Shown piece by piece: positions 18,961-45,287 of a DNA stretch of 64,000 nt. Position numbers and translations under genes: made by a program. Each line of letters starts with the position of its first letter. The stretch's first letter is position 1. Source of the stretch: Watersipora subatra (taxonomy: Eukaryota > Bryozoa > Gymnolaemata > Cheilostomatida > Watersiporidae); assembly GCF_963576615.1 (NCBI RefSeq), contig NC_088715.1:2682001-2746000 (forward strand), written 5' to 3'. Below the pieces are notes generated by a model, which searched no databases, was not told the DNA's origin, and saw only the letters and a list, made by a program, of their open reading frames with translations.

Positions 18961-19103
18961 ATGGAAGAACAGGAGAATACTCGCTGTGGGTTTTGTTTGG
19001 AAAAACTGATAACTACTACAGACCCTAAAGAGTTACCATGTTCTCATGTCTACTGCTTGTCCTGTCTTACAGCTGATTATAAAAAGACATGTCCAACATG
19101 CAA
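18961..19103 (+). CDS. TRIM-2 exon 1, RING finger
   Basis: ATG in a good context (acagaatgg). It encodes MEEQENTRCGFCLEKL and then LPCSHVYCLSC...CPTC, a C3HC4-type RING with all recognisable zinc ligands. The exon ends in phase 2 before gtgagt. RING domains recruit E2-ubiquitin. The same start is used in TRIM-3. Confidence 0.88.
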
Positions 19104-22100
19104 GTGAGTACAACTCCAAGTATTTATCTTGTCTACCACATTGAAAACTAGTCATCTCAGCCTACCAAAAAATTATGTTTGGTTTGTCACAAAATTCTGC
19201 AGTTCAAACATGCCTTTTTGGCATTGTGTTTGATCACTAACTCAGTGGTTTAAGCCACATGGTAAATACCTTCTGTTTCCTGTTCACTTGAACCAACGCT
19301 TTGTAGGAATCACTGGTTACACATCTTGTACAACACATTAAATATATATATTCATTTATTAACATATTAGTGTATTCTAATATTATAGTCAGAGGTGGAC
19401 AGGAGAGGCCGATTCCCTCCAATCATATTCCTTGACAGCTGAAATGGGCTGCCCAAAAGGAAATATTATTACTTGTGACCCCTGCAAATCAAGTGAAAGT
19501 CCAGCCAATGTCTACTGTATCAACTGTGAGAAGACATTTTGTGAAACGCATGAACAGGTGAGTGTGACACTCATTGACAGGTCATAATGTCTGACATGAA
19601 GGTAATTTATTTATACCACTTTACCTTTTGATAGGATCATGACAAGCTATTTGACCTTGAGCATGACAAAGTGAGTATATCAACGTATGCATCTTCTCGG
19701 GCGAGTTACCATAGTAGTGGAGAAGCAGCCTAGAGCTATCTTTCACTCTTATTTATATAAATATGGAGAATAAAGTAAGATCAGATTCTTGGCCAGAATT
19801 TTATGCTGAGTTCAATTATATAGTTTCTACACCTATAACTGGTCACATTTAGAAGTTCTAGGACGATTTTATTTTGAGAGAGGACAACTCCTAAAATTTC
19901 GGAAAATTGGTATTTTTCCGTTTGAAATTACTGCTATGAGTCAAGTTTTCACATTTAAGAGTTAAAAAAGCATGGAGGATAAGGATTGTGTCTTCCATTG
20001 TTTGGAAAAATTGTGGGGAAACCTTGGTTAGAGTCACAGCACAGCAGTGAAAAACTGCTCAGGGGTACACACAGAAGTGAACCGAGTTGGATGATGAACT
20101 TAACATAGTAATTGCAGCAAACATTCTTGAACATGACTCACACACAAACCTTGTCTGTCACTATGCATGCCACAAAAAATACTGCAATAAGTTATTCTTG
20201 GAAAGAGCTGAGGCCAGACATACGAAGAGAAAATCAGCAGAGGATACTGTCAGCTCTGAAGAGGTGGGTACTGTGGTGTCAATCCATTTCACCACTGGGC
20301 ACTGAATAGTGTTGCTCCTCATTGTTTTTATTGCCATTGTGATACACATAAATTATATATTTATCATTAATAAATCTCTATGTTCACATTGTTTTACAAA
20401 TTTAGTAAGAGCAGAGCAATGTCATTTGTGCCCCATTTGTGTTAACTTATTTGAAAGTCTACATGGTGTTTGGTGACCAGGCCTGCCAACCCAAGAATGG
20501 GGCAATGCGTGAGATTTGGTTTTGGGGCAATTGATGTATCAATGATAGTATGTGTAAAATTGTGGAAATTGGGGCAAAAATCTCACGTATTTTCATTTTT
20601 TTTTGGGGTGATTGCGTGAGTCTCACGCCCAATGCGTGAGAGTTGGCAGGTATGTTGGTGACTTCCGTCCATGTTATAGTCATGCACTGTTACAATGACT
20701 GATTATTTGTGTCATGGGTTTATTCTAGACAACCACAAAAAATTAAGGTCATTTGGCACTGTTAGAGGAACTGGTCCTCTTTTACCACAGTTGTACATCA
20801 TGTCAGAAGATAAATGGTTGAAGAAATCGGGAAAGAAAACTGTAAGAGATACGCTAGTCAAAGCACAAACCTTGACAGCAGGTGATGCATCAAGTCTTGT
20901 TACTAATAAGCTGCATAATTATGACGACCTACTCAGCCCTCTATTACTTCCAAAGTAACCAAACAACATAAATTTTTGGCATTCACTTTTTTATAGGATT
21001 GCTGATTGACTCCGCCAGAAGACGGCCAGATGGACAAAAGGTATTGGATTTAATTGGTCAGGACCCTGACTTGGTAGCTATGGAAGCGAGATACCACAGA
21101 GTATGTTTCAGAGAATTCATCCGCCAAGACACTAGGACAACACAGCCAGCCGTACAAAGGTAAGCCATTTTGTTTGTCTGCAATCAATCTAACTTGAACA
21201 TATACTGTATATCTTATATTATTTTAGAATAGAGCTATCTAGCAATGGCACATTACCTTGCCAAATAGACTGATTATTCTGGGCTTTTTGTGGTCATTGG
21301 TGAAAGTTTTTCATTGCTTTTTATATTGATGCTTTCAGAGAATCAGATCCATACAATGAAACGTACCGGAAATACTTTATGCCATTCTTGAGTAAAGAGG
21401 AGCAGTGCACAGATCAAACAGGATCTTGATGTATACATAGCATTTTCTTCCAAGTGCAACAAAATCAGTTTTCAAATTGATGGGAAAACCAGTTAACAAA
21501 AATATAGTGAGTCTAGCATCAGATCATGAGGAAGCTGACACAAGAATGACAGCACATATAATGTCCATCATGGAAGACAAAGGATCGAACTGTACGGTGA
21601 TGATAAAGTGTCAAGATACAGATGTGTTTATGATTCGTATATCTTGCGTACATGAGCTTCCATCAGATCAATTCTACTACTTCTGTGGGAAGAAAGAACG
21701 AATGCGATGCATACACATTGGAAATGTATCAGGTATTCTAACACCGCCCTACTACCAGGCACTTCTGGGTCTACATGCACTCAGCGGTTGTGATAGTATC
21801 AGCGCATTTTATTCAAAGGGAAAGAAATCCTTTCTGAATTTGCTCAATCAGAACCCTGAGTTCATCAATGTATTAAGCTCTTTGGGCTTGGAGTTTGAGG
21901 TAAGTGATGATACTCAGCACTCTATAGAGAAACTCATATGCAGGCTTTATAATATTGACACAACTGAAAAGGTCAATGAAGCAAGATATTTGGTTTATTG
22001 CTCTCCCTCAAGGATTTCCCAAGCTAACCTTCATCCAACCCAAGATGAATTGAGGCTGCATGTAATGAGAGCTGGTTACCAAGCAGCCATATGGCGTAGA

Positions 22101-25100
22101 GCTGTGCAGCCAACAATTGATCCACCCCTACCCACTAATCATGGCTGGACTTTGTATAATGGAAATCTCAAAATCACATGGATGACACAGACCCATCGCC
22201 TTCTGGTGTGATGAAAGACATTTTATGTCGCTGTAAGACAGGATGTTCATCCAAATAAATGGTTATATAATATTGTGTATATGTTAAACTCTATGCAACT
22301 TGGAAAGATATAAATATTAAATCTGAAATATGTCACAAATTCTGATCTTGATTGATGTATTGCAACCTCTTTGCCTTCCCAAAATGATAAACTGGCGAAA
22401 TTTGAAATTATATCATTAAATTCATGTATTACATAATACATTATGAAAATGTTGTGGTAAGTTGAGAGAATTGTCAATTACATCCTCGGAACAAGCTCCA
22501 AATTTTGGTCCAAAAACACATGGAATTGAGTGGTATTCACAATTATATTTAATACATACTTCAAGTTATGCATATAACTTACATAATAATATTATGTAAT
22601 ATAAATTCAAATCCATCCGTTTTTGAAATCTCAAAATATGATATTTGAAATTAGCTACAAATTTGGATCTAGTTTGATGTATCACAGTCCCGCTCTGTAC
22701 TGGTCGAACTTGTAAATTATAATAATTATATTATTAATTTATTGTATCACGTAATACATTATAATTAGTCTGGTGGCTAGTTTAGAAGTGTAGAAACTAG
22801 ATATTCAGAATCAGCATAAATTTCTGGTCTAGAACATTATTTCAGCATATTGTCCATCCTAATATAAAATAAATCACTTTTTTGAGCACTTTATGGTAGG
22901 CTGCTGCTCCACTATAGACTTTTATGCAAGGAACACTCAAACCAAGTTATTACTATAGCCTGTGGCCTGTGCTATCAGGTGTTCTGTGCGAACTGTGACA
23001 TGGGCTCCCTATGCCGAGGAGAGGAAGAAGGTGAGACCATTTTAAGTCTTTCAGTTGAGCTGTCGATAATGTGACAATTCATTTTCATGTGACCAACTCA
23101 TATTGTCACTCGGAGTTACCTTCTCTATGTCTGGCTTTCCTATGTCTAAACTGGTTTAGAGAATTACAAAACACACACGTATGGATATATATATATGTAT
23201 ATACATACATGTAGATATATATATATATATATATATATATGCACCAGCAGGAAACTGTCAGTAGCTGAAAAGATAAGTGAACTATTTAATTTTTGAATTA
23301 GATATATACATACTATAATACATAAGCATACTCTAGCAGCCCGCTGCAGGGTTATCACAGACCTTATAATTGGTATTGAAGCACTAGTGAATTGATTCCG
23401 CTAATAGCAAAAGTAAGCAAAAATAGCATCGCACTGTTTCAAAACAGAGGAATTGGGGAAAACAAAAAAGCAGATGAAAGAATTAGCATGAAAGTCAGTC
23501 ACTTCCAGCTCCCACAACTAGTCTCATAGCTATAAAACCAAAAACAATTTCAATAGGTAGCTTTGACAGATAAAGTTATATGATTTGTGAGTGAGGGAGC
23601 AGTCTCTATATATTTCTGAAGAATCTATAATAATTTGATGAAACAAAAGCTCAACAAACTTACAACGCTTTTCTTATATGTAATGTTTCAACATTTCCTT
23701 TCCGAAAAGCTAGGTAGGTCATCCAGTATTCAAGTGATTTTGAGGTTGCTTTGTACATTAAGTCTATAATAATATAATAACTGCACCAGCTCCTTTTGCT
23801 TCAGAGCCTTCATCAGGATTTGGATTTGCAGCGTCAAAATCAAACACAGGACTATTTGGTAGTACAACAGATTCCAATACATTATTTGACAATACAGCTG
23901 CACAAGCTCCCTTTGCTTTAAAGCCTTCATCAGGATTTGGATTTGCACCATCCAAATCAAACACAGGACTATTTGGTAGTACGACAGATTCAAATACATT
24001 ATCTAACAATACAACTGCACCAGCTCCTTTTGCTTTAAAGCCTTTGTCAGGATTCGGATTTGCACCATCCAAATCAAACACAGGACTATTTGGTAGTACG
24101 ACAGATTCAAATACATTATCTGACAATACAACTGCACCAGCTCCTTTTGCTTTAAAGCCTTTGTCAGGATTCGGATTTGCACCATCCAAATCAAACACAG
24201 GACTATTTGGTAGTACGACAGATTCCAATACATTATCTGTCACTACCACTGCACAAGCTCCCTTTGCTTTAAAGCCTTCGTCAAGATTTGGATTTGCACC
24301 ATCCAAATCAAACACAGGACTATTTGGTAGTACGACAGATTCCAATACATTATCTGACAATACAACTGCACCAGCTCCTTTTGCTTCAAAGCCTTCGTCA
24401 GGATTTGGATTTGCAGCGTCAAAATCAAACACAGGACTATTTGGTAGTACAACAGATTCCAATACATTATTTGACAATACAGCTGCACCAGCTCCCTTTG
24501 CTTTAAAGCCTTCGTCAGGATTTGGATTTGCACCATCCAAATCAAACACAGGACTATTTGGTAGTACGACAGATTCCAATACATTATCTGACAATACAAC
24601 TGCACCAGCTCCTTTTGCTTCAAAGCCTTCGTCAGGATTTGGATTTGCAGCGTCAAAATCAAACACAGGACTATTTGGTAGTACAACAGATTCCAATACA
24701 TTATTTGACAATACAGCTGCACCAGCTCCCTTTGCTTTAAAGCCTTCGTCAGGATTTGGATTTGCACCATCCAAATCAAACACAGGACTATTTGGTAGTA
24801 CGACAGATTCCAATACATTATCTGACAATACAACTGCACCAGCTCCTTTTGCTTCAAAGCCTTCGTCAGGATTTGGATTTGCAGCGTCAAAATCAAACAC
24901 AGGACTATTTGGTAGTACAACAGATTCCAATACATTATTTGACAATACAGCTGCACCAGCTCCCTTTGCTTTAAAGCCTTCGTCAGGATTTGGATTTGCA
25001 CCATCCAAATCAAACACAGGACTATTTGGTAGTACGACAGATTCCAATACATTATCTGACAATACAACTGCACCAGCTCCCTTTGGTGACAAATCTGGAG

Positions 25101-28100
25101 CTTTAATGCACAGAAATGTAAGTTTATAGTGAAGTTGAAAATAACAATGTGTCATCTGTCAACAGTTTTTCTAACCAAATGGAAATCTATTTGATGATCA
25201 GCCAATCATTTTTACATGCATTTAGCATTCACTGATAAACCTAATCTAGCACTTGACTCAGTGTTTATGTACCAAACATTTTAGCAAAACCTTTTCTTCA
25301 GTAATGTGATGATTATTATAACACCTTGACACTCTAATTTAAGTGCATTGTCTTGTCATGCCTAATTTATATAATTTTCTATCTAATGTTACCCACTACA
25401 TCAATATTACGATATGAGTTCTTATCTGATGTTACTCACTGTATTTATATTACTGTACGAGTTCTTATCTGATGTTACTCACTGTATTTATATTACTGTA
25501 TGAGTTCTTATCCGTTGTTACTGTGTTTATATTACTGTATGAATTCTTATCGGATGTTACTCACTGTGTCTATATTACGATATGAGTTCTTATCTGATGT
25601 TACTCATTGTGTCTATAATACTATATGAGTTCTTATCTGATGTTACTCACTGTGTCTATATAACTAACTATATGAGTTCTTGTCTGATGTTACTCAATAT
25701 GTCTATATTACTATATGAGTTCTTATCTGATGTTACTCACTGTGTCTATATTACTATATGAGTTCTTATCTGATGTTACTAACTGTGTCTATATTACTAC
25801 ATAAGTTCTTATCTGATGTTACTCACTGTGTCTATATTACTATATGAGTTTTTATCTGATGTTACTCACTGTGTCTATATTACTACATAAGTTCTTATCT
25901 GATGTTACTCACTGTGTCTATATTACTATATGAGTTGTAATCTGATGTTACTCATTGTGTCTATATTACTACATAAGTTCTTATCTGATGTTACTCATTG
26001 TGTCTATAATACTACATGAGTTCTTATCTGATGTTACTCACTGTGTCTATATAACTATATGAGTTCTTGTCTGATGTTACTCAATATGTCTATATTACTA
26101 TATGAGTTCTCATCTGATGTTACTCACTGTGTCTATATTACTATATGAGTTCTTATCTGATGTTACTAACTGTGTCTATATTACTACATAAGTTCTTATC
26201 TGATGTTACTCACTGTGTCTATATTACTATATGAGTTTTTATCTGATGTTACTAACTGTGTCTATATTACTACATAAGTTCTTATCTGATGTTACTCACT
26301 GTGTCTATATTACTATATGAGTTGTAATCTAATGTTACTCATTGTGTCTATATTACTATATGAGTTTTTATCTGATGTTACTCACTGTGTCTATATTACT
26401 ACATAAGTTCTTATCTGATGTTACTCACTGTGTCTATATTACTATATGAGTTGTAATCTGATGTTACTCATTGTGTCTATATTACTACATAAGTTCTTAT
26501 CTGATGTTACTCATTGTGTCTATAATACTATATGAGTTCTTATCTGATGTTACTCACTGTGTCTATATTACTATATGAGTTCTTATCTGATGTTACTAAC
26601 TGTGTCTATATTACTACATAAGTTCTTATCTGATGTTACTCATTGTGTCTATATTACTACATAAGTTCTTATCTGATGTTACTCATTGTGTCTATAATAC
26701 TATATGAGTTCTTATCTGATGTTACTCACTGTGTCTATATAACTATATGAGTTCTTGTCTGATGTTACTCAATATGTCTATATTACTATATGAGTTCTTA
26801 TCTGATGTTACTCACTGTGTCTATATTACTACATAAGTTCTTATCTGATGTTACTAACTGTGTCTATATTACTACATAAGTTCTTATCTGATGTTACTCA
26901 CTGTGTCTATATTACTATATGAGTTGTAATCTGATGTTACTCACTGTGTCTATATTACTATATGAGTTGTAATCTGATGTTACTCATTGTGTCTATATTA
27001 CTACATAAGTTCTTATCTGATGTTACTCATTGTGTCTATAATACTATATGAGTTCTTATCTGATGTTACTCACTGTGTCTATATTACTATATGAGTTCTT
27101 ATCTGATGTTACTAACTGTGTCTATATTACTACATAAGTTCTTATCTGATGTTACTCATTGTGTCTATATTACTACATAAGTTCTTATCTGATGTTACTC
27201 ATTGTGTCTATAATACTATATGAGTTCTTATCTGATGTTACTCACTGTGTCTGTATAACTATATGAGTTCTTGTCTGATGTTACTCAATATGTCTATATT
27301 ACTATATGAGTTCTTATCTGATGTTACTCACTGTGTCTATATTACTATATGAGTTCTTATCTGATGTTACTAACTGTGTCTATATTACTACATAAGTTCT
27401 TATCTGATGTTACTCATTGTGTCTATATTACTATATGAGTTCTTATCTGATGTTACTCACTATGTCTATACTACTATATGAGTTCTTATCTGATGTTACT
27501 CACTATGTCTATATTACTGTATGAGTTCTTATCTGATGTTACTCACTGTGTCTATATTACTATATGAGTTTTTTTTCTGATGTTACTCACTGTGTCTATA
27601 TTACTATATGAGTTCTTATCTGATGTTACTAACTGTGTCTATATTACTACATAAGTTCTTATCTGATGTTACTCACTGTGTCTATATTACTATATGAGTT
27701 CTTATCTGATGTTACTCACTGTGTCTATATTACTATATGAGTTCTTATCTGATGTTACTCACTATGTCTATATTACTATATGAGTTTTTTTCTGATGTTA
27801 CTCACTGTGTCTATATTACTACATAAGTTCTTATCAGATGTTACTCACTGTGTCTATATTACTATATGAGTTCTTATCTGATGTTACTAACTGTGTCTAT
27901 ATTACTACATAAGTTCTTATCTGATGTTACTCACTGTGTCTATATTACTATATGAGTTCTTATCTGATGTTACTCACTGTGTCTATATTACTATATGAGT
28001 TCTTATCTGATGTTACTCACTATGTCTATATTACTATATGAGTTCTTTTCTGATGTTACACACTGTGTCTATATTACTATATGAGTTCTTATCTGATGTT

Positions 28101-31100
28101 ACTCACTGTGTCTATATTACTATATGAGTTCTTATCTGATGTTACTCACTGTGTCTATATTACTATATGAGTTTTTTTCTGATGTTACTCACTGTGTCTA
28201 TATTACTACATAAGTTCTTATCTGATGTTACTCACTGTGTCTATATTACTATATGAGTTCTTATCTGATGTTACTCAATATGTCTATATTACTATATGAG
28301 TTCTTATCTGATGTTACTAACTGTGTCTATATTACTACATAAGTTCTTATCTGATGTTACTCACTGTGTCTATATTACTGTATGGGTTCTTATCTGATGA
28401 TACTCACTGTATCTATATTACTATATGAGTTCTTATCTGATGTTATTCACTGAGTTCATTTATATAATTGCAGATATCTCATAGAGGAACAATGTCAGTA
28501 AATTTTGTCGCACCTGACGGAACAGATAATATGGTTAAAAATGGTGTATCCATGCAAGTCAAGACCAAACATTATAATATAACCAGAATGCATCAGTATG
28601 AAGCTTTCAGTGTTGAGGTAATTTAAATGAAATGTACTCTCTTATGTATTTCTTTGAAATAAACACGGTAGAACATTTGGCTAGAGAGTTTACTGTTTAA
28701 ATTTTCAACAGTTTGTAAGACACCCAAGTGATATTAACTTTGCTAGCTATGACTGCAGTTATCACTAAATAGATAATGAATGTTGATTTACGTAAGTTCA
28801 TGACATTTCTCTTATTTACTTATGAGAGATGTTGGCTCAGGAGATATAAGTTATGTCCAGTTATGAAATGACTAGTACAAGCCCAAAGGTTTCTTGACCA
28901 TCTAATCTTTCATGAGTAGAAATCAGTGTTGGATTCAGAACTTTTTACTATCCCTTCTTCTGTCTGAATGCAAAGTCTTAAATACTTTTAAGAATTTCTG
29001 GTTCTCCTCAGTTGTGTGTATTCAGTGTAACAAGTTTAATAGAAGAAGTGTTATAGCACTATTCCTACACTTATCTGTTCACAGGAACTCAGGCTTGATG
29101 ACTATCAACTGAATGGAAAGCGTCCATTTGTGTTTAGATTACCTTCTTCCAGCTTTGATTGCGCTTCCTTCCAGAAACTGACACTCAAAGAGAAGCCACC
29201 TGCAGACAAAGGTTTAGCGGCATTCACATTTGATAGCATTTTTATTGGTTTTATTCATAACATGTCTCAGTAACTGTTTTTTTTAATATAGTGAGTCTGT
29301 TTATTCTGCTTTTATTTTTAAATTTGTGTAATTTTTATATTTCTTTACATTGAAGCTCAAAACTTTAGAGGATTTTCTACTTTCTAGCAGGTTTTACTAA
29401 GCTTGTTACAGCTTGTAGAGCGCTACCTGCTGTTCTTAATTAAGCTGTTAATGACTAAACCAAGAATGTAGCTAATCATCTAGTGGATGAATCAGATATG
29501 ACTCATCAGAATAAAGCTTCCTAATGAGGCTTATTTTTTAAGAACTGAAAAGTTAAATCAGACTTGTTTAAAAATGAAAAATTATTGTTTATCGATTACA
29601 TAAAATAGTAGAGTTGTTTCCTGTAGCTAAGTCGATGGAGGACAACTCCAGTTCAAACTCATTATCACCCTCACAATGCAGCATATGTACAGGTATTGTT
29701 GAGAATATATCAATTTATAAGACTATGGTAATGCAGACCTTGAAACATGATTTCTGTTTGTTAGTCCCGCGCCTCCACAAATTCATGCCTATTGCTGATG
29801 TGCTGAACAAAGCGGATGAGCTGTTAAGGAGACGACTCCAAAACATCTCTGAGCGGTCTACAGAGATCTGCAGAGCTGAGAAACAGCTTTGGCAAATTGT
29901 TGATGATGCTGATATTTATAACAAAACAATGAAGTCATATGTAGACAGAATCATCAATGAGAAGGTAACTCCCTGAGTGTTTCAGGCAATCAGCACTGAG
30001 TAGTAACAATGTTAAGACTAGACTTGATAGGTTGTAAATCAGTGTAGTATTTGGAGTATCTTCTCAGTGTTTTGATGAAATGGGAGTGGCTGATGCTATC
30101 AACCACTATAGTAGATGACAATATGACGATATTGGTACAATGACAATATTGGTATATTGTGCGGATTAAAATCATTTAAAATGAGTGAGTATACATAGCC
30201 TTGTCATCAGTCACTTGACAGGTGAGGTTTGATACAACTATACTGTGTTCGATATAACTATACAGGGTTTGATATAACTATACAGGGTTTGATATAACTA
30301 TACAGGGTTTGATATAACTATACAGGGTTTGATATAACTATACAGGGTTTGGTATAACTATACAGGGTTTGATATAACTATACAGGGTTTGATATAACTA
30401 TATAGGGTTTGATATAACTATATAGGGTTTGATATAACTATACATGGTTTGATATAACCATACAGGGTCTGATATAACTATACAGGGTTGATATAACTAT
30501 ACAGGGTTTGATATAACTATACAGGGTTTGATATAACTATACAGGGTTTGATATAACTATACAGGGTTTGATATAACTATACAGGGTTTGGTATAACTAT
30601 ACAGGGTTTGATATAACTATACAGGGTTTGATATAACTATATAGGGTTTGATATAACTATATAGGGTTTGATATAACTATACATGGTTTGATATAACCAT
30701 ACAGGGTCTGATATAACTATACAGGGTTGATATAACTATACAGGGTTTGATATAACTATACAGGGTTTGATATAACTATACAGGGTTTGATATAACTATA
30801 CAGGGTTTGATATAACTATACAGGGTTTGATATAACTATACAGGGTTTGATAAAACTAAACAGGGTTTGATATAACTATACAGGGTTTGATATAACTATA
30901 CAGGGTTTGATATAATTATGCAGGGTTTGATATAACTATACAGGGTTTGATATAACTATGCAGGGTTTGATATAACTATACAGGGTTTGATATAACTATA
31001 CAGGGTTTGATATAACTATACAGGGTATGATATAACTATACAGTGTTTGATATAACTGTACAGGGTTTGATATAACTATACAGGGTTTGATATAACTATA

Positions 31101-34100
31101 CAGGGTTTGATATAACTATACAGAGTTTGATATAACTATGTAGGATTTGATATAACTATACAGGGTTTGAGTAACTATACAGGGTTTGATATAACCATAC
31201 AGGGTTTGATATAACTATACAGGGTTTGATATAACTGTACAGGGTTTGATATAACTTTACAGGGTTTGATATAACTATACAGGGTTAGATATAACCATAC
31301 AGGGTTTAATATAACTATACAGGGTTCTATATAACATTCTGACCCTCATCACCACAGTCTTCATAGTTTGCATGTGAATGAAGACCAAAGGTCTTGTATA
31401 GAATATAGATCTTTTATAGAATAAAAGATCTACCTGGTACATACATTTGAGTATCCACTTTGTTTGTCATGTTTGTGTTAACAAAAGTATTTATTGAGGC
31501 CAAATGAAATATAGTAATAAGGTAATATGAAATATGAATTTCAGTACCAGGTCTTGCTCGAGAATGGTGAAAAAATCAAGGGAGAGCTTGAGAGGAAGTT
31601 TAAAAGTGCAGTTGCAAGAGCTGCTCTACGTACGGATGAACTGAACTCAGAAAGTGAACATCTGCAGACATTGGAGAAAGAGATTGCCTCCAATATAGAT
31701 TGCAATGGAGTCAGCCTTCTTGACTTTATGCGTAAAAACAGATCAATCTTGAACAACACCAGCCTCCAGCTCTTGAAGAAATTTAGTATTGAGAAAGAAA
31801 CTTTGCAGCTAGAAGGTTTGTATTTGAGTCTTATTTAAACCTCATATGCGCTAAGCTATCACTTGAAATAGATCAGTAACTGAGTCACCTGTAAGTAACA
31901 TATCAGTAACTGGGTCACTCACAAGTAACAATTCAGTAACTACGTCACTCGTAAGTAACAAATCAGCAACTTGGTCGCTCGTAAGTAACAGATCAGCAAC
32001 TGGATCACTTGTAAGTAACAGATCAGTAACTGGGTCACTCATAAGGAACAAATCAGTAACTGGGTCACTTGTAAATAACAGATCAGTATCTAGGTTACTT
32101 GTAAGAAACTGAACAGCAACTGGATCACTTGTAAGTAACAGATCAGTAACTGGGTCACTCATAAGTACTAGATCAGTAACTAGGTCACTTGTAAATAACA
32201 GATCAGTAACTAGATCACTTGTAAGTAACTGAACAGCAACTGGATCACTTGTAAGTAACAGATCAGTAACTGGGTCACTCTTAAGTAACAGATCAGTAAC
32301 TGGGTCACTCGTAAGTAACAGATCAGTAACTGAGTCACTTGTAAGTAACGGATCAGTAAATGGGTCACTTGTAAGTAAAAGATCAGTAACTTCGTCACTC
32401 TTAAGTAACAGACCACTAACTTGTAGGTTGTATTAAACCGCTTGCTTTGGTACTTTTTAGTTTTGAAATAAGACACAAGATTTGAACAATGATCTGTATT
32501 TTCAATTTAGTTACAAGGTATGGCTGGTTAAGAAATGTGTGAGTTAATATAGTGAGTTAACTACACTTACATGAGACTATGACAGAGCAAGAAATGAATT
32601 ATCAAAAAGAAACTTCTGACATGGAATTATAGCTAACTTGCCTGGTATTTACATGTAAGTAGGTGAGGAAGGTAGATACTACGCACGAGACCTTTAATGA
32701 CCACATGACATAAAGCTACTGACTTTACTACACGTACTACTGAGTAGGAGTTCGCTTCTCTTGCTTTCTAATAGAATATTTCTTCATGTTCTGTTTATTA
32801 GTATGAATAAAGAAAACCGTTAAAACATCTTTCTATCTCTCTTTCTTTTCTCTTCACTTCCCCTCTCTCTCTTTCCACCTTTCTCTCTCCCCCTTTTCAG
32901 CTACCTCTTTCCCTCGCCCTTCCCCGGTTTGTCTTTCCCCCTTTCCCTCTCTCCCTTTCCCTCTCTCTCTTTACCTCTCTCCCTTTCCCTCTCTCCCTTT
33001 CCCTCTCTCCCGTTCCCTTTCTCCTGTTCCCTCTCTCTCGATCCCTCTCTCCCGTTCTCTCTCTCCCAATCCCTCTCTCCCACTCCCTCTTTCCTCTCTC
33101 CCTTTCTGTCCTCTTCCCGCTCTCTTCGCCTCGCTCCTCTCTTTTCGCTTCCCTCTCCTCTCTCCTCACTCCCCTCTTCTTGCTCCCCTCTCTTCACTAC
33201 CCTCGCGTCTCGCTCCTCCTCCTCGCTCCCTCCAACTCGCTCTCCCAATTCGCTCCCCCCATCTCGCTCCCCCCATTCGCTCCCCCTATCTCGCTTTTCT
33301 TCTCTCCCTTTTCTTCTCTCCCTTTTTTTCTCTCTTTTTTCTTCTCTCCCTTTTCCTCTATTCCTTGTCCTCTATTCCTATTCCTCTTCCCCTTCTCTTC
33401 ATTTTCCTGACTTCCTTTTTCTCTCTTCCTTTTCCTCTCTCCCTTTTCTTCTCTCCCTTTTTTCTCTCTTTTTTCTCTCTTCCTTTTCCTCTCTTCCTTT
33501 TCCTCTCTTCCTTTTCCTCTCTTCCTTTTCCTCTATTCCTTTTCCTCTCTTCCTTTTCCTCTCTTCCTTTTCCTCCCTTCCTTTTCCTCTTTTCCTTTTC
33601 CTCTCTTCCTTTTCCTCTCTTCCTTTTCCTCTCTTCCTTTTCCTCCTTTCCTTTTCCTCTCTTCCTTTTCCTCTCTTCCTTTTCCTCTCTTCCATTTCCT
33701 CTATTCCTTTTCCTCTCTTCATTTTCCTCTCTTCTTTTTCCTCTCTTCCTTTTCCTCTCTTCTTTTTCCTCTCTTCATTTTCCTCTCTTCATTTTCCTCT
33801 TTTCCTCCCTTCCTTTTCCTCTCTTCCTTTTCCTTCATTCCTTTTCCTCTCTTCATTTTCATTTCTTCATTTTCCTCTTTTCCTTTTCCTCTCTTTATTT
33901 TCCTCTCTTCATTTTCCTCTATTCCTTTTCCTCTGTTCAATTTCCTCTCTTTATTTTCCTCTCTTCATTTTCCTCTCTTCCTTTTCCTCTCTTCCTTTTC
34001 CTCAATTTCCTTTTCCTCTCTTCCTTTTCCTCTCTTCATTTTCCTCTCTTCCTTTTTCTCTATTCCTTTTCCTCTCTTCCTTTTCCTCAATTTCCTTTTC

Positions 34101-37100
34101 CTCTCTTCCTTTTCCTCTCTTCATTTTCCTCTCTTCCTTTTTCTCTATTCCTTTTCCTCTCTTCCTTTTCCTCTCTTCCTTTTCCTCTCTTCCTTTTCCT
34201 CTTTTCCTTTTCCTCTCTTCATTTTCCTCTCTTCTTTTTCCTCTCTTCCTTTTCCTCTCTTCTTTTTCCTCTTTTCCTTTTCCTCTCTTCCTTTTCCTCT
34301 CTTCCTTTTCCACTCTTCCTTTTCCTCTCTTCTTTTTCCTCTATTCCTTTTCCTCTCTTCCTTTTCTTCTCTACCTTTTTTCTCTCCCTTTTTTTCTCTC
34401 TTTTTTCTCTCTTCCTTTTCCTCTATTCCTTTTCCTCTCTTTCTTTTCCTCTCTTCTTTTTCCTCTTTTCTTTTTCCTCTCTTCATTTTCCTCTTTTCCT
34501 TTTCCTCTCTTCCTTTTCCTCTTTTCCTTTTCCTCTATTCCTTTTCTTCTCTTCCTTTTCCTCTCTTATTTTCCACTCTTCATTTTCCTCTCTTCCTTTT
34601 TCTCTCTTCCTTTTCCTCTTTTCCTTTTCCTCTATTCCTTTTCCTCTATTCCTTTTCCTCTTTTCCTTTTCCTCTATTAGGTGATAAAGGTAAACATGTA
34701 AGTAGATGAGAAAGGTAAACATGTAAGTAGATGAGAAAGGTAAACATGTAGGTAGATGAGAAAGGTAAACATGTAAGTAGATGAGAAAGGTAAACATGTA
34801 AGTAGATGAGAAAGGTAAACGTGTAAGTAGATGAGAAAGGTAAACATGTAAGTAAATGAGAAAGGTAAACATGTAAGTAGATGAGAAAGGTAAACATGTA
34901 AGTAGATGAGAAAGGTAAACATGTAAGTAGATGAGAAAGGTAAACGTGTAAGTAGATGAGAAAGGTAAAAGTGAAAGTAGAGGAGAAAGGTAAACATGTA
35001 AATAGATGAGAAAGGTAAACATGTAAGTAGATGAAAAAGGTAAACATGTAAATAGATGAGAAAGGTAAACGTGTAAGTAGATGAGAAAGGTAAACGTGTA
35101 AGTAGATGAGAAAGGTAAACATGTAAGTAGATGAGAAAGGTAAATGTGTAAGTAGATGAGAAAGGTAAATGTGTAACTAGATGAGAAAGGTAAACATGTA
35201 AGTAGATGAGAAAGGTAAACATGTAAGTAGATGAGAAAGGTAAATGTGTAACTAGATGAGAAAGGTAAAAATGTAAGTAGATGAGAAAGGTAAACATGTA
35301 AGTAGATGAGAAAGGTAAATGTGTAACTAGATGAGAAAGGTAAACATGTAAGTAGATGAAAAAGGTAAACATGTTAGTAGATGAGAAAGGTAAACATGTA
35401 AGTAGATGAGAAAGGTAAACATGTAAGTAGATGAAAAAGGTAAACATGTTAGTAGATGAGAAAGGTAAACATGTAACTAGATGAGAAAGGTAAACATGTA
35501 AGTAGATGAGAAAGGTAAACATGTAATTAGATGAGAAAGGTAAACGTGTAAGTAGATGAGAAAGGTAAATGTGTAAGTAGATGAGAAAGGTAAACGTGTA
35601 AATAGATGAGAAAGGTAAACGTGTAAGTAGATGAGAAAGGTAAACATGTAAGTAGATGAGAAAGGTAAACATGTAAGTAGATGAGAAAGGTAAATGTGTA
35701 AGTAGATGAGAAAGGTAAATGTGTAACTAGATGAGAAAGGTAAACATGTAAGTAGATGAGAAAGGTAAATGTGTAACTAGATGAGAAAGGTAAACATGTA
35801 AGTAGATGAGAAAGGTAAACATGTAAGTAGATGAGAAAGGTAAATGTGTAACTAGATGAGAAAGGTAAACATGTAAGTAGATGAAAAAGGTAAACATGTT
35901 AGTAGATGAGAAAGGTAAACATGTAAGTAGATGAGAAAGGTAAACATGTAAGTAGATGAGAAAGGTAAACATGTAAGTAGATGAGAAAGGTAAACATGTT
36001 AGTAGATGAGAAAGGTAAACATGTCATTAGATGAGAAAGGTAAACATGTAAGTAGATGAAAAAGGTAAACATGTTAGTAGATGAGAAAGGTAAACATGTA
36101 AGTAGATGAGAAAGGTAAACATGTAAGTAGATGAAAAAGGTAAACATGTTAGTAGATGAGAAAGGTAAACATGTAAGTAGATGAAAAAGGTAAACATGTT
36201 AGTAGATGAGAAAGGTAAACATGTTAGTAGATGAGAAAGGTAAACATGTAAGTAGATGAAAAAGGTAAACATGTAAGTAGATGAGAAAGGTAAACATGTA
36301 AGTAGATGAGAAAGGTAAACATGTAATTAGATGAGAAAGGTAAACGTGTAAGTAGATGAGAAAGGTAAACATGTAAGTAGATGAGAAAGGTAAACATGTA
36401 AGTAGATGAGAAAGGTAAACGTGTAAGTAGGTGAGAAAGATAAATCTTACACACATGACCTTTAATTAATAACCACATAAAGCTACCGCCGACCTCACTA
36501 CACCTACTATTACTACTGAGCAAAAGTTTTCTTTTCTTGTCTCTAAATAAAATATTTCTTTATGTTCTGTTTATAATATGAAGAAGGAAATTGTTAAAGT
36601 ATAAGGCTGACTTAAATGTGCTCTTTTCTATTACAAGAGCTGCGTATGCCTGGAGTAACAGCAATGATCTCTTCTTGCTTGTTGCTAATAATAACTACAT
36701 ACTTGGGGTAAAATTGTAAGTTTAGTAAAAAACTTTACTATAAAACTTATTTCTGTTAACTAGATAGAAATTCATATTTATTAATAGTATAATTATAAAT
36801 TTATGATTATCATTGTATTGCTATATATAATTATTGCTGTATATATTATACAATCATTTATAATTCATAACATATAAACATTTCAATTAACTATGAAATG
36901 AAAATTTAAAAAATGGAAACAACAAATTGATTATGTTTCCTCTAAGCCACGTTATAACGCATCTTGAAGGGCATAAATCACATTTTTATTACAGCCTTTC
37001 AAAATGTTAACCAGTTATAGCCTGGGTTCCCAATTCGCTACTTGATAGGTCCAATCATCAAATGGCAATGGAAGCCATACTTTCCCTCTCACCTGCAGCT

Positions 37101-40100
37101 GACCACTAAGAAAAGTACAGATGAGCAAATTCTCTCTTTGACCTTCATGAAAAACGGTTCTGTCCTTGTGGCTGCAGAGAAGAACATTCTAGAAATTAGA
37201 GACGCTCAACTGAAAGTTCGACATCGACAGACGACATCAGGTACTCTTAAAGCAGTGTCTACGCTCAACAATCAACCTGCAGCCTTGATACATGATGATG
37301 ACAAAGTAGCCTTTTATCTATATGAGGATAATCTCCTTGAGGGTAGAAAGGTCATAGAGTGGAGAAGCCCTGAGCTCGAGTCATATGATCTGGCAGTATT
37401 TGAGAATGAACTAGTAGTATTAGAAGTGCTTGCCAAGAAGATAACGCGTGTCCGTACTGATGATTGGACAATTGAAGAAGAGATTTTAGATACTAAACCT
37501 GGCTCAATATGCATCGTTGATAAAAGCTGCTTCTGGGCTGCCGACTCTACGTCTATTTGGAAACTCGACAGCCATTTAAAACTGAGTTTTGGGTGTAGCC
37601 ATGTGCCGTGGGAAACTAACGGAAAACCATTGGCATCTGTTCGACTCTGTAAAACTTCAGATGCGAATGGGTTTTTTTATGCGAGCAAAGGAAACCGGAT
37701 TCTATCATTTCCTTTTACAGGTAAGTTTATAAATCTTTACGTTTGTCTGTCATTCATCTGTCCAGTTATAGCAATAAAGTTATAGCAATAAAAATATCCT
37801 TCGTACTGGATTTGAACTCGTGATATTCAAATCGCACGCCGACTAACAAGCGCGGGTAATCACAAGGCTATGCAGTTCATATCATACCCATTGCTCTTAC
37901 CATATACTCACTGTATATCCTTTTCGGATTGCACATGAAAATATTTAATTGATACAGTGCGCTCTTGGGCTACGATGCCCCTGTTATAAGCTTGTTTACG
38001 TCTCACAATGCAACACAATGCGTTTTCGTTATATAAGGACAAAATTCTTTTGACTTTTTTCCGTTATATTATATTACCAAAAACTTCTCTCAAAATTAAA
38101 ATTTGACAGTTGGCATACTAATTACGATGAAATAACAAAAATGCTGTTATGCTATTCGCCGAAATCACTCCTATAGAACGCCTGAAAGAAATATGATGAT
38201 CACTATCTCTGTTCAGTGTTATTCCAAGTCAATCCAAGCCGAGCCATGCCGAGTCAAGACCGAGCTGAGCCGGGCCGAGCCGTGTCGGGTCTAGCCAAGT
38301 AGAACGGAGGTGGAGCTTACTAGCTATATCAGCTCGAACATTTGTGTAGAAGAGCAGAGTTTTTGGCCTGTTCATTGCTTGTTACTTGATCATTGTTGTA
38401 CAATTTATGAACTAAGCAGAAATATATGTATAAACTCATGCCCCGAGTCTTGTACTAGTGGAGGAAAAGTGAAGGTCGCACAAAACCTTTACACTATGAA
38501 ACACGAAAAAATGTGATGATCACTATCTCAGTTCAGTGTTATTCGTTATAAGTTATAGTAAAACCGTAACTGAAAACAGATAAGTAATAAAATATTAGGC
38601 AATGACAAAGTTGAAGTGTAGTTCAGTAAAATGCATACTAAAACTCAGCTTTGGTAAGTTAAAATCATTTAGGTTAAAATCAACATTTACATGTATGTTA
38701 TACGTTTGTCTAAAAGGAACCACCTACGATACGTACTGCATGTAGTAGATTGTAATGCTACATTTTCTTGCAGATCATAACCACTAAATACACAAAAACT
38801 ACTGTACGTAACTATAGTTACTAAAGTTAACATATTGTTTTGCTACTATTTTTAATGTGAATAGTCTGTGAATAACATTTTGATGATTTTTACAAAGGTG
38901 TGTTTGCATAAGATAGTGATATAATGCTATCACTTAATTGAATTAAAATCATATAATTTTATACCAAATCATTTTTTATTGTAATCACGGTAAAACAACC
39001 TTTATTTAGCCGTTATTTGCTAATTATTTAACATTTACATTTAAACACCTTTACTGTTGTTTTATTTTCCCTCCTAACTTATTCGACAAAACCTTTTTTG
39101 TGTGATATGAAATTTAAAAGTTACAGTTGCTTGAAAAAGTTTCAAAACCTTTACAGTTGTTTTCTTTTTTTCTCTTAATTTATTTGAACTGCACAAAACA
39201 CTTCATGAAAGTTGAAAGTTACATGTTGCTGGATGTTGAATAAAGATAAATTTTCTGTGCAAAGACTTTTTTATTACCCGAGCAACGCCGAGCAATCACC
39301 TAGTAATAGTGATATAACGGTATCTCGCCAATTGTCTATAAATAGACGATTTGCTATATACCGCGGTTCGATATATCAAACTCGCAATATCAGATGGAAT
39401 GTTGATTTTTGGAAATCGCCAAATTTTAGAAATCTGAATAATCAGAACTTCTGTAAGATCTTCGGAAAGGCTTGCACTAGTTATGCTCATTTACTCTCTT
39501 GATGTAACCAAATAATTTTTTGAGGTTTCACTTTCCTTTGTTGTAGCATTTGTTTCATTTGTTAAAAATTGTTACAATAAAATTATTTATCATACAAGAA
39601 CTCTCGAACTAAACAATTGTTTCATTAAAATTATCTGTCATACAAGGTTTAACATTTACTGAGTTTACAGAGAATAATTCAATAAAACCTGATGAATTAA
39701 CTAGTTTCACCAAAAAGACAACTTTTAACATAAACAACGTATAATAACATATATTAACAAATCAAAAGTTAGCTTTTTAAAATGAAGCATTTATTCCAGA
39801 CAGAGAAACACAATTCCCACCTATTTTTCACCCACTAACTAAATTTGTCTTTTTATAAATTCTTGAACGATTGTAACGCGGTACATATCAAATGTGTATT
39901 TATTTAGGAATGTTACCCAACCTTGACCTAATTAATGTTTGAAAATGTACTGAATTAGATACAATATTTTGTCAAAAATATTTTAGGATGGAGACATAGC
40001 TTCTTATCTGGCCCAGACCTATCTGTAAACCAGGAAATCACTGATCTAGCTGTGTGCAGAACTAACCTGGTTGTAGCCTGTGGACCCGAGATGATGTTGT

Positions 40101-40114
40101 TCAACATACTCTAA
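18961..40114 (+). CDS. TRIM-2: RING, B-boxes, GLFG repeats, coiled coil, propeller (10 exons, one broken by a transposon)
   Basis: Exons: 18961-19103, 19389-19557, 19635-19714 joined to 22918-23030 (transposon between), 23763-25117, 28474-28617, 29085-29211, 29627-29964, 31545-31815, 37049-37720, 39987-40114. All have GT-AG edges and compatible phases, and sum to 3540 nt, exactly 1180 codons with the TAA stop. The product would be a RING E3 ubiquitin ligase of TRIM type with a nucleoporin-like FG domain inserted before the coiled coil. Only the 3.2-kb transposon in exon 3 interrupts the frame. I cannot find a splice pair at the transposon ends that restores frame, so full-length protein is doubtful. 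No transcripts were available. Confidence 0.8.
19389..19557 (+). CDS. TRIM-2 exon 2, B-box 1
   Basis: Follows a tattatag acceptor and ends in phase 0 at cag-gtgagt. It encodes a B-box 1-like zinc motif: CDPC, then VYCINC, then FCETHEQ, with the cysteine/histidine pattern seen in TRIM proteins that have two B-boxes. Confidence 0.82.
20087..20959 (+). pseudogene. transposon gene, 5' exons (degraded)
   Basis: Frames at about 20087-20260 (LVCHYACHKKYCNKLFLERA, His/Cys-spaced) and 20695-20958 (LRSFGTVRGTGPLLPQLY) look like remnants of the N-terminal half of the DHEEADTR family. In that family a YH..C..F motif is common. They are not joined in one frame, and a MITE lies between them. Confidence 0.5.
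20478..20654. mobile_element. 177-bp MITE nested in the transposon
   Basis: Terminal inverted repeats CAGGCCTGCCAAC and, as the complement of the right end, CATACCTGCCAAC. An 8-bp direct repeat ttggtgac lies at 20470-20477 and 20655-20662. The inside is rich in gcgtgag and ctcacgc motifs that extend the fold. An 8-bp duplication fits a hAT-type mover. Confidence 0.75.
21477..22211 (+). CDS. transposon-borne DHEEADTR protein, C-terminal exon (244 codons)
   Basis: Open frame with SDHEEADTRM, IKCQDTDVFMI and ALSGCDSISAFYSKGKKSFL. I recognise this set from many uncharacterised proteins in invertebrate and fish genomes, usually repetitive. The acidic spacing (EAD, then DTD, then GCD plus a small GKGK turn) resembles the PIN/XPG 5'-nuclease fold (EA, DxD, G.D...GxG). 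That resemblance is my inference. It ends near the 3' end of the element. The start is not certain, since exons upstream are broken. Confidence 0.65.
   Translation: MMGKPVNKNIVSLASDHEEADTRMTAHIMSIMEDKGSNCTVMIKCQDTDVFMIRISCVHELPSDQFYYFCGKKERMRCIHIGNVSGILTPPYYQALLGLHALSGCDSISAFYSKGKKSFLNLLNQNPEFINVLSSLGLEFEVSDDTQHSIEKLICRLYNIDTTEKVNEARYLVYCSPSRISQANLHPTQDELRLHVMRAGYQAAIWRRAVQPTIDPPLPTNHGWTLYNGNLKITWMTQTHRLLV
23031..23762. other. TRIM-2 intron 3
   Basis: Contains a TA/TG microsatellite at about 23180-23240. The part from about 23390 aligns with TRIM-3 46200-46690. No exon is seen. Confidence 0.6.
23763..25117 (+). CDS. TRIM-2 exon 4, FG/GLFG nucleoporin-like repeat domain
   Basis: 1355-bp exon (phase 1 in, phase 0 out, gtaagt donor). 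It encodes 11 tandem 39-residue units, each with GFGF and GLFG and a Ser/Thr/Asn-rich, almost uncharged spacer (GFGFAPSKSNTGLFGSTTD, then APAPFA). That gives about 22 FG motifs. Units 5-10 form three copies of a 78-residue dimer, so recent homogenisation is visible at 234 bp. The composition is that of cohesive GLFG nucleoporins such as Nup98, which phase-separate and bind transport receptors. The acceptor (attaag at 23757-23762) is weak, so the left edge is less sure. Confidence 0.85.
25386..28456 (+). repeat. 43-bp tandem array R3 in TRIM-2 intron 4 (about 71 units)
   Basis: Unit theme: ttcttatctgatgttactca followed by ctgtgtctatattactatatgag. Variants include ttactaactgtg and attactacataag, and blocks of variants recur as higher-order groups. 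The array reaches to within about 20 bp of the 3' splice site of exon 5, and its last degenerate unit supplies that intron's 3' end. A homologous array is in TRIM-3. Confidence 0.97.
28474..28617 (+). CDS. TRIM-2 exon 5, unrecognised domain part 1
   Basis: 144-bp phase 0-0 exon after aattgcag. It encodes MSVNFVAPDGTDNMVKNGVS and then VKTKHYNITRMHQYEAFSVE. The alternating hydrophobic pattern suggests a small beta domain shared with exon 6. I do not recognise a family. The TRIM-3 counterpart is the same length and well conserved. Confidence 0.8.
29085..29211 (+). CDS. TRIM-2 exon 6, unrecognised domain part 2
   Basis: 127-bp exon, phase 0 to 1, after ttcacag. It encodes ELRLDDYQLNGKRPFVFR and ends LKEKPPADK. 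It likely completes the small domain begun in exon 5. The donor gtttag is non-ideal but is matched by gttttg in TRIM-3. Confidence 0.75.
29627..29964 (+). CDS. TRIM-2 exon 7, coiled coil part 1
   Basis: 338-bp exon, phase 1 to 0. After a Ser/Asn-rich linker it encodes LHKFMPIADVLNKADELLRR and further helix typical of the TRIM B-box C-terminal coiled coil. It is open throughout, unlike TRIM-3 exon 7, which is the same length but has a stop. Confidence 0.85.
30226..31334 (+). repeat. 20-bp tandem array R1 in TRIM-2 intron 7 (about 55 units)
   Basis: Same 20-bp unit as in TRIM-1 (tatacagggtttgatataac). A block of about 12 units including a shortened unit (gggttgatataac) occurs twice, near 30270-30480 and 30510-30720, showing duplication of multi-unit blocks. 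It ends about 210 bp before exon 8. Confidence 0.97.
31545..31815 (+). CDS. TRIM-2 exon 8, coiled coil part 2
   Basis: 271-bp exon, phase 0 to 1, after atttcag. It encodes YQVLLENGEKIKGELE and continues as an amphipathic helix ending ETLQLEG. Open. Confidence 0.88.
31866..32425 (+). repeat. 30-bp tandem array R2 in TRIM-2 intron 8
   Basis: About 18 units of the same 30-bp repeat as in TRIM-1 intron 8, most with gtaagtaac. It begins about 50 bp after the real donor. Confidence 0.93.
32840..34679 (+). repeat. 1.8-kb pyrimidine array, 14-bp unit
   Basis: Strand-asymmetric C/T tract. From about 33410 the unit is 14 bp (cttccttttcctct) with small changes; before that it is a less regular ctccctctct run. 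Long frames on either strand here (Phe/Leu/Ser on plus, Lys/Arg/Glu on minus) are artefacts of the repeat. The TRIM-1 and TRIM-3 introns lack it. Confidence 0.96.
34680..36445 (+). repeat. 25-bp tandem array in TRIM-2 intron 8 (about 70 units)
   Basis: Unit theme: gagaaaggtaaacatgtaag followed by tagat, with variants (aacgtg, aatgtg, gttagt, taacta). Nearly every unit has gtaagt. It directly abuts the pyrimidine array. Single-copy precursors of the unit sit at about 3580 (TRIM-1), 32655 (TRIM-2) and 60565 (TRIM-3). A segment of about 180 bp containing the precursor is present on both sides of the two arrays (32653-32830 and 36425-36600). Confidence 0.97.
36446..37048. other. TRIM-2 intron 8, right end
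   Basis: Non-coding; aligns with TRIM-1 3590-4260 and TRIM-3 60590-61075. No extra exon is needed: phases of exons 8 and 9 join directly. Confidence 0.7.
37049..37720 (+). CDS. TRIM-2 exon 9, beta-propeller-like domain
   Basis: 672-bp exon from the gatag acceptor (GPIIKWQWKPYFPSH first) to tttacag-gtaagt. Open throughout; same length and motifs as TRIM-1 exon 9, for example VRTDDWTIEEEIL and FFYASKGNRILSF. Confidence 0.85.
37721..39986. other. TRIM-2 intron 9
   Basis: Aligned with TRIM-1 intron 9. It has an extra 290-bp segment (38224-38513) between 30-bp direct repeats; see findings. A SINE-like stretch lies at about 37800-37900. No exon is supported. Confidence 0.7.
38194..38543. repeat. 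290-bp insertion between 30-bp direct repeats
   Basis: The 30-mer beginning tgatgatcactatct lies at 38194-38223 and again at 38514-38543 with one mismatch. TRIM-1 has it once (near 5778-5807). The inserted part starts with a GC-rich run of gagccg-like words, unlike its surroundings. Confidence 0.8.
39987..40114 (+). CDS. TRIM-2 exon 10, last propeller blade and stop
   Basis: Phase 1 exon after ttttag. It ends LVVACGPEMMLFNIL then TAA (40112-40114), where TRIM-1 and TRIM-3 have TGA at the same place. Confidence 0.87.
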
Positions 40115-40189: not shown

Positions 40190-40220
40190 CTTATTGTCAC
40201 ATCTTCCATGTGACAATAAG
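40190..40220 (+). promoter_or_regulatory. 3' UTR hairpin, TRIM-2
   Basis: Identical to the TRIM-1 hairpin in stem and loop, 75 nt after the stop codon. Confidence 0.6.
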
Positions 40221-42877: not shown

Positions 42878-43020
42878 ATGGAAGAACAGGATGATACCCA
42901 TCGTGGATTTTGTATGGAAAAACTGATGACTAGTGCAGACCCTAAAAAGCTACCAAGTTCCCATGTCTACTGCTTGTCCTGTCTTGCAGCTGATTATGAA
43001 AAGACGTGTCCAACATGCAA
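42878..43020 (+). CDS. TRIM-3 exon 1, degenerate RING
   Basis: 143 bp as in TRIM-2. It encodes THRGFCMEKL and LPSSHVYCLSC...CPTC. Compared with TRIM-2, the first ligand is TGT to CGT (Arg) and the one before SH is TGT to AGT (Ser). With two zinc ligands missing, E2 recruitment is unlikely. Confidence 0.85.
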
Positions 43021-43320
43021 GTGAGTACAACTTCAAGTATTTATTTTGTCTACCACAATCAGAGATACTCAGCTGAGCCAACCAAAGCATTATTTTTTGT
43101 TTGTAACAAAATGCTGCAGTTCAAACATCCCTTTTGGCATTGTGTTTGATCAATAGCTCAAGGATTGAAGTCACATGTTAAATATTTTCTGTTTCCTGTT
43201 TAGTTGAACTAACTTTAGTTGGGAATCACCAGTTACACATATTGTGTATACACAACATAAAGTGTAAAGTACATGTGCACCGGTTTCATTATCTATGGTT
43301 AGTTTATCCTACTATTATAG

Positions 43321-43495
43321 TCAGCTGTGGATTGGAGATGCTGATTCTCTCCAATCACATTTATTGACAGCTGATACGAGCTGCCTGAAGGAAGGTATTA
43401 TTGAAGGTACATGTGACACCTGCAAATTAGGTGAAAGCCTAGCCTGTGTCTACTGTTTCAACTGTGCGAACACAGTTTTTAAACCGCATGAGCAG
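43321..43495 (+). CDS. TRIM-3 exon 2, altered B-box 1
   Basis: 175 bp (two codons longer than TRIM-2). It has CDTC and VYCFNC, but the FC..H of TRIM-2 is FKPH, so one ligand is lost. Phase 2 in, phase 0 out. Confidence 0.8.

Positions 43496-45249: not shown

Positions 45250-45287
<38 letters not shown>

Follow-up and report, generated by a model that had tools for sequence, protein, structure and literature searches.

In the accounts cited here, Nup98 carries two FG/GLFG regions that are bisected by the GLEBS motif (PMC11423334), and Rae1 anchors to this motif (PMC8790125). The Rae1-Nup98 complex is a common target of unrelated viral proteins: vesicular stomatitis virus M, murine herpesvirus 68 ORF10 and sarbecovirus ORF6 have all been reported on it (PMC9376891), with ORF6 peptides lodging, within the Rae1-GLEBS complex, in the RNA groove of Rae1 and making no contact with GLEBS itself (PMC9376891, PMC8790125). 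Rae1 has also been connected to E3 ubiquitin ligases, in that PHR ligases are reported to bind RAE-1 via a defined domain and to act through it (PMC4806438), and TRIM34 co-immunoprecipitates with RAE1, possibly indirectly according to the source (PMC13189347). TRIMCyp uses its cyclophilin to bind virus (PMC2924388), and in NUP98 fusions FG valence is described as driving condensates, with GLEBS dispensable for puncta (PMC8983581). Here, we analyse a 64,000-nucleotide (nt) stretch of the genome of the bryozoan Watersipora subatra (NCBI RefSeq assembly GCF_963576615.1, contig NC_088715.1, positions 2,682,001 to 2,746,000; ‘the window’) and its focal gene, TRIM-2, in which a Nup98-like segment lies between TRIM-type parts.

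A preliminary description of the window had read the locus as a new TRIM architecture that contains a nucleoporin-like domain. At the DNA level this stands, and the insert can be named more precisely as FG plus GLEBS, arranged as in the N-terminal half of Nup98; the public protein model of the locus, on the other hand, comes without the FG and GLEBS exons. On balance, we judge it probable that the window holds a tandem family of TRIM-derived E3 ligases whose ancestor captured a Nup98 FG-plus-GLEBS segment, placed after B-box 2 and before the coiled coil. Domain order, GLEBS identity, phase continuity and two paralogous copies are directly visible in the DNA. We refer to the predicted ligase as TRIM-derived, not as a canonical TRIM, because the FG and GLEBS exons separate B-box 2 from the coiled coil in both copies. 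The architecture is real and unusual at the DNA level, its expression and intactness being unproven.

Compared with described systems, TRIM-2 resembles Nup98 in having GLFG-type repeats and then a GLEBS that matches all 39 Pfam positions, but differs in its single FG block of regular tandem units of 39 amino acids (aa) and in yielding no match to the Nup98 C-terminal domain. From TRIM-NHL proteins (Brat, Mei-P26, TRIM2/3), it is set apart by the Nup98 segment before the coiled coil, the lack of a Pfam NHL match and an incomplete B-box 2. With TRIMCyp (TRIM5-cyclophilin A) it shares the capture, by a TRIM gene, of a host domain that viruses engage (PMC2924388); there, retrotransposed CypA is described as replacing the C-terminal domain, whereas in TRIM-2 an intron-split Nup98 segment sits mid-gene and any antiviral role is conjectural. 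PHR ligases (Highwire/RPM-1/MYCBP2) and TRIM34 are comparable as RING E3s reported with Rae1, yet PHR proteins bind RAE-1 through a domain of their own, and the cited accounts of PHR and TRIM34 describe no GLEBS/FG fusion. NUP98 fusion oncoproteins likewise join the Nup98 N-terminal region, with its FG motifs interrupted by GLEBS, to a foreign partner (PMC8983581); as described, they are leukaemia translocation products, mostly with chromatin factors, whereas the TRIM-2 insert lies in a genome assembly, internal to an E3-like gene.

An FG-GLEBS segment inside a TRIM-like locus

Exons were located via splice motifs and paralogy among the gene copies. The chain of TRIM-2 exons encodes 1123 residues, not the 1180 codons given earlier, in the order RING, B-boxes, GLFG repeats plus GLEBS, helical region and beta-propeller (Table 1). 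The splice-compatible exons of the preliminary description are present: all nine introns of TRIM-2 and all nine of its tandem paralogue, TRIM-3, are GT-AG with matching phases (the transposon inside exon 3 of TRIM-2 is excluded from the intron count).

What had been called an unknown region contains a Nup98 GLEBS, encoded by exons 5 and 6 and aligned over all 39 positions of the Pfam profile PF21240 (E=2.1e-16 in TRIM-2, 1.5e-14 in TRIM-3). Bit scores are 61.6 in TRIM-2 and 58.3 in TRIM-3; the human motif reaches 92.7, and the cut-off lies at 27. In a PDB search at E≤10, seven of the nine sequences listed were Nup98 (best E 2.5e-14), the other two being titin (0.9); the entries 7vpg, 4owr, 7byf and 3mmy we take to be Rae1 complexes. 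Identity to human Nup98 GLEBS amounts to 30 of 53 residues in TRIM-2 and 29 of 53 in TRIM-3. Within a 40-residue core of our own choosing, TRIM-3 has changed at one of the 25 positions where TRIM-2 and human agree and at six of the 15 where they differ (p=0.007, one-sided Fisher test); for the full 53 residues, the counts are 2/30 and 7/23 (p=0.028). The local mutation rate may account for part of this contrast, because silent changes are likewise rarer at human-shared codons (2/30 versus 4/23).

The FG array of TRIM-2 consists, as initially described, of 11 units of exactly 39 residues with a GLFG in each; it holds 23 FG and 11 GLFG motifs, about 5 FG per 100 residues, with 10% charged residues. 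At least two FG plus a GLFG in the consensus unit were reached in 12 of 20,000 residue shuffles. The TRIM-3 exon carries 12 FG and one GLFG in 241 residues, against a shuffle mean of 1.8 FG, and none of 20,000 residue shuffles had as many. Since Pfam Nucleoporin_FG stays below its cut-off on the TRIM-2 array (19.8 versus 32.2 bits) and no Pfam FG match was seen in the scanned translation of the TRIM-3 exon, the putative nucleoporin-like identity of the array rests on motif, composition and position directly before GLEBS. The open frame alone proves little, because a 464-aa frame is also open antisense to the array. Within-array ratios of non-synonymous to synonymous differences per site (pN/pS) were 0.39 in TRIM-2 and 0.62 in TRIM-3. 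Two database matches were set aside as repeat or composition artefacts, namely NosD on the FG array (62.2 bits, over its cut-off) and ribosomal L11 on the TRIM-3 FG exon (E 0.14). An alternative acceptor for TRIM-2 exon 4, at 23805, has the same phase and a longer pyrimidine tract.

RING, B-boxes and the C-terminal half

The RING proposed for TRIM-2 was recovered above the Pfam cut-off (zf-RING_2, 30.8 versus 27.3 bits) with a complete Cys/His pattern. Of the two proposed B-boxes, both yield matches, yet neither reaches the PF00643 cut-off of 24.1 bits (17.2 in TRIM-2, 18.3 in TRIM-3). Read by eye against the generally known zinc-ligand patterns, B-box 1 of TRIM-2 follows C-x2-C-x9-C-x2-C-x4-C-x2-H; the B-box 2 match is partial, covering profile positions 5-32 of 42, and its TRIM-2 exon is split by a transposon. 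This element has inner arms of 87 nt, inverted and 74% identical, and its longest frame (21441-22211) matched no Pfam family above cut-off. Splicing in frame around it, from 19684 to 22918, would be possible on paper.

Exon 8 forms two long helices in an AlphaFold model (predicted local distance difference test score, pLDDT, 82). The end of the protein is a beta-propeller in a low-confidence model (pLDDT 51), whose fold matches, most of which we take to be propellers, include the Mei-P26, NHL-2 and Brat NHL domains among others. The ‘propeller-like’ end of the preliminary description thus holds as a low-confidence fold; its NHL label was set aside, as the exon translations gave no match to Pfam NHL. 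A DeNovoTIM13 match on this region (E=2.5e-8) was taken as another repeat or composition artefact.

Table 1 Features of the TRIM-2 locus and its paralogues (window coordinates)
Feature	Position	Strand	Remarks
TRIM-2 (focal gene)	18961-40114	+	ATG at 18961, stop ends 40114; ten exons
TRIM-2 exon 1: start codon, RING	18961-19103	+	zf-RING_2 E=3.5e-7; donor gtgagt; paralogous exon 42878-43020
TRIM-2 exon 2: B-box 1	19389-19557	+	sub-threshold B-box match, residues 77-111; paralogue 43321-43495
TRIM-2 exon 3: B-box 2, transposon inside	19635-23030	+	zf-B_box 5-32 of 42, below cut-off; paralogue 43573-43777 uninterrupted
3.2-kb DNA transposon in B-box-2 exon	about 19712-22917		18-nt inverted repeats 19715-19732/22897-22914 (94%)
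TRIM-2 exon 4: 11 FG/GLFG units of 39 aa	23763-25117	+	tandem array; phase 1 in, phase 0 out
TRIM-2 exon 5: GLEBS, first part	28474-28617	+	PF21240 E=2.1e-16; PDB Nup98 chains, E from 2.5e-14
TRIM-2 exon 6: GLEBS, last part, and linker	29085-29211	+	PF21240 and PDB Nup98 matches
TRIM-2 exon 7: presumed coiled coil, first part	29765-29964	+	start ATG of P0001 (29929) inside
TRIM-2 exon 8: presumed coiled coil, second part	31545-31815	+	AlphaFold helices; junctions as in P0001
TRIM-2 exon 9: predicted beta-propeller	37049-37720	+	propeller matches of low-confidence model; junctions as in P0001
TRIM-2 exon 10: predicted propeller end, stop	39987-40114	+	as in P0001
TRIM-3 (tandem paralogue)	42878-62720	+	repeats TRIM-2 exon order
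TRIM-3 exons 1-3	42878-43020, 43321-43495, 43573-43777	+	RING without two cysteines, B-box 1 and 2
TRIM-3 FG exon	46787-47511	+	four 39-aa units and diverged flanks
TRIM-3 GLEBS exons	49351-49494, 49963-50086	+	PF21240 E=1.5e-14; 58.3 bits
TRIM-3 coiled-coil exons	56866-57065, 58927-59197	+	
TRIM-3 propeller exons	61076-61749, 62593-62720	+	frame broken in 61076-61749
TRIM-1, visible part	2808-3078, 4261-4932, 7257-7384	+	frame intact; last three exons only

Tandem copies and their constraint

TRIM-3 repeats the order and phases of TRIM-2, as had been noted, except for defects in its RING cysteines and propeller frame. With exon 3 left out on account of the transposon, each TRIM-3 exon is as long as its TRIM-2 counterpart or deviates by a multiple of three (exon 2, +6; FG exon, -630; exon 6, -3), the propeller exon (+2) excepted. 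The repetition also claimed for TRIM-1 holds for its last three exons, any FG part lying outside the view. A fourth W. subatra paralogue lies outside the window (P0002, 298 aa; 23 of its 284 15-mers common with the window; 5' part unseen).

The W. subatra assembly is reported to be built from PacBio HiFi reads with a quality value of about 63, and it is accompanied by an alternate haplotype, GCA_963576605.1, and by RNA-seq of specimen tzWatSuba4 under BioProject PRJEB62167 (PMC12902671). Because of this quality, base errors are an unlikely cause of the transposon, RING and frame defects, provided that the window equals the published assembly.

Selection was assessed with neutral simulations matched on the number of changes and the transition rate (n=2000 each). 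For TRIM-2/TRIM-3 they covered RING, B-box 1, 37 codons of B-box 2, the GLEBS exons and exons 7-8, and for TRIM-1/TRIM-2 exons 8-10; neither FG exon was included, nor the propeller exon of TRIM-3 or the TRIM-2/TRIM-3 comparison of exon 10. As low a value as observed arose in two of 2000 simulations for the TRIM-2/TRIM-3 coiled coil and in none of 2000 for exons 8-10 of TRIM-1/TRIM-2. For the exons other than those left aside, per-exon ratios of non-synonymous to synonymous substitution rates (dN/dS) ranged over 0.20-0.74 for TRIM-2/TRIM-3, 0.19-0.36 for TRIM-1/TRIM-2 and 0.41-0.49 for TRIM-1/TRIM-3. Coiled coil and propeller show clear purifying selection, GLEBS a weak one; for the RING half between TRIM-2 and TRIM-3, one copy of which is decaying, it is unproven.

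Exon junctions and the public protein model

Phases link B-box 2 (phase 1) to GLEBS (phase 0) solely via the FG exon in both copies, and the lengths of this exon, 1355 nt in TRIM-2 and 725 nt in TRIM-3, are both 2 modulo 3. Its frame has no early methionine, the first standing at 449 of 452 (TRIM-2) and 136 of 260 (TRIM-3). We infer from the DNA that RING to propeller form one transcript.

NCBI holds a matching protein, P0001 (uncharacterized protein, Watersipora subatra, 368 aa), which is an exact substring of the exon 6-10 translation of TRIM-2 with the same end. Comprising part of exon 7 through exon 10, it matches three of the nine junctions (7/8, 8/9 and 9/10). It may be a truncated prediction, because its start passes over an in-frame ATG at 29785 of exon 7.

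Predicted role of the insert

Rae1 docking is, in our judgement, the most likely function of the insert, and Rae1 binding is also the most testable consequence that GLEBS would entail. In the mechanism we envisage, GLEBS would bind the propeller protein Rae1, the coiled coil would dimerise the ligase, and the GLFG array would add weak multivalent contacts with itself, transport receptors or FG proteins of the pore, while the RING would ubiquitinate Rae1 itself, the RNA-export partners bound to it or foreign proteins that dock there; Rae1 binding, ligase activity and target are all predictions at this stage. Recruitment of Rae1 by a TRIM protein is plausible because E3-Rae1 links are known from PHR ligases and TRIM34. 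The condensates and the action at nuclear pores put forward in the preliminary description are both conjectural, the FG density being about 5 per 100 residues. Residency at the pore was rejected as the default reading, since no anchoring domain was seen: a piecewise Pfam scan of the exons found no match to the autoproteolytic, pore-anchoring C-terminal domain of Nup98.

A more speculative and unlikely extension is that of an integrated-decoy restriction factor, in which the captured GLEBS and FG bait would deliver foreign proteins that dock on Rae1-Nup98 or on FG repeats to the RING, as a nuclear-pore counterpart of TRIMCyp. Because ORF6 sits in the RNA groove of Rae1 without touching GLEBS, a TRIM that carries GLEBS could in principle keep Rae1 plus ligand close to its RING. 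A germline E3 with the Nup98 half of Rae1-Nup98 would be an animal precedent for ubiquitin-ligase activity brought to Rae1, and would parallel TRIMCyp in origin. The locus provides a concrete test of FG-GLEBS as a portable module outside the pore.

Alternative readings

Several observations weigh against an intact, captured-segment ligase. P0001 omits exons 1-6, including RING, FG and GLEBS, and starts at an internal methionine of exon 7. The transposon splits exon 3 of TRIM-2; the TRIM-3 RING falls below the zf-RING_2 cut-off (20.3 bits; Cys9 to Arg, Cys27 to Ser), and the TRIM-3 propeller exon, at 674 instead of 672 nt, runs as it stands into a stop at residue 123. Between TRIM-2 and TRIM-3, RING and B-boxes were indistinguishable from neutral (376 of 2000 simulations as low) and selection on GLEBS was weak (88 of 2000), with a dN/dS of 0.74 in GLEBS exon 5. 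For the FG unit consensus of the two copies, dN/dS in the coding frame (0.56) was no lower than in some other frames (0.36-0.51 in one other sense and two antisense frames); with three other frames giving lower values, coding constraint on the array was not taken as decisive evidence. Eight AATAAA/ATTAAA hexamers lie in the TRIM-3 intron before the FG exon. The RING/FG/GLEBS fusion was seen only within this 64-kb window: the FG-less model found no match at E≤1 among public proteins of about 369-1174 aa (8000 candidates scored), nor did a GLEBS query among those of about 618-1965 aa (four candidates), where the lower bound of about 369 aa, 0.55 of 671, lies just above the 368 aa of P0001 and shorter GLEBS proteins could be missed. 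Scans of viral contigs with exon 9 (four pattern stretches) and of genome contigs with exon 5 (22 stretches) returned no relative, in collections not meant for animals. Titles and abstract starts among the open PMC records listed (for example, 20 of 776) showed no protein combining RING/B-box with FG or GLEBS, which is not proof of absence.

Much of this would fit a decaying array, in which the fusion is ancestral and the visible copies make only a short coiled-coil-propeller product or nothing. The transposon, the lost cysteines and broken frame of TRIM-3, the undetectable constraint on RING and B-boxes and the start of P0001 at ATG 29929 all point that way. We nevertheless consider this rather unlikely, as the TRIM-2 RING is still over its Pfam cut-off, the exons of TRIM-2 are open except for exon 3, human-shared GLEBS positions are mostly kept in both copies, and further copies exist in TRIM-1 and P0002, their 5' parts unseen. 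Very doubtful is a pair of interleaved genes duplicated together, a short RING/B-box gene and a Nup98-derived FG-GLEBS-coiled-coil-propeller gene. For it speak the failure of the above protein searches to find the parts joined, the polyadenylation-like hexamers of the TRIM-3 intron between B-box 2 and FG, and 13 ATG-begun stretches with a phase-1 GT in that intron per copy. The TRIM-2 intron, however, is free of AATAAA/ATTAAA, the best alternative start exon (23638-23713 in TRIM-2) is not kept in TRIM-3 (alignment judged by eye, the other 12 not being compared), and the phases of exon 3 and the FG exon match in TRIM-2 and TRIM-3 alike. RING/B-box, moreover, usually has coiled coil and propeller as its downstream partners. 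A variant that overlaps with the captured-segment ligase keeps the same protein and makes it a regulator of endogenous Rae1 or of the pore, not a defence factor, setting Rae1 level or ubiquitination at pores or the spindle. This is a real if lesser possibility. A tandem array with decaying copies is more like immune TRIMs, which speaks against it, while PHR ligases, which are reported to bind RAE-1 via a defined domain and act through it, offer a precedent for the regulator (PMC4806438).

Repeats around the genes

The intron between the FG and GLEBS exons is mostly a 43-bp minisatellite, with 71 copies in TRIM-2 (25380-28452) and 40 in TRIM-3 (47615-49336), and each of the three copies has 20-bp arrays upstream of exon 8 (297-2645, 30226-31335 and 57290-58749). 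Shortly past the stop, each copy has an inverted repeat with a 12-bp stem, TTATTGTCACAT...ATGTGACAATAA (7461-7489, 40191-40219 and 62797-62825), perhaps a hairpin of the 3' untranslated region. Further on, a minus-strand frame recurs (MATRNSNLMEDILTGRDECIDIDDVFNSK and a near copy; 8559-8654, 41157-41252 and 63719-63814), which may be the initial exon of an adjacent gene that was duplicated along each time. Upstream of TRIM-2, a long frame at 14747-15649 beside a Ty3/gypsy-type element matched nothing above cut-off, and a nearby stretch on the plus strand (16903-17223) holds an RVT_1 fragment scoring 25.2 bits, under the cut-off of 29.6. The Ty3/gypsy-type element itself, at 10651-15649 on the minus strand, encodes reverse transcriptase, RNase H, integrase and a chromodomain according to Pfam.

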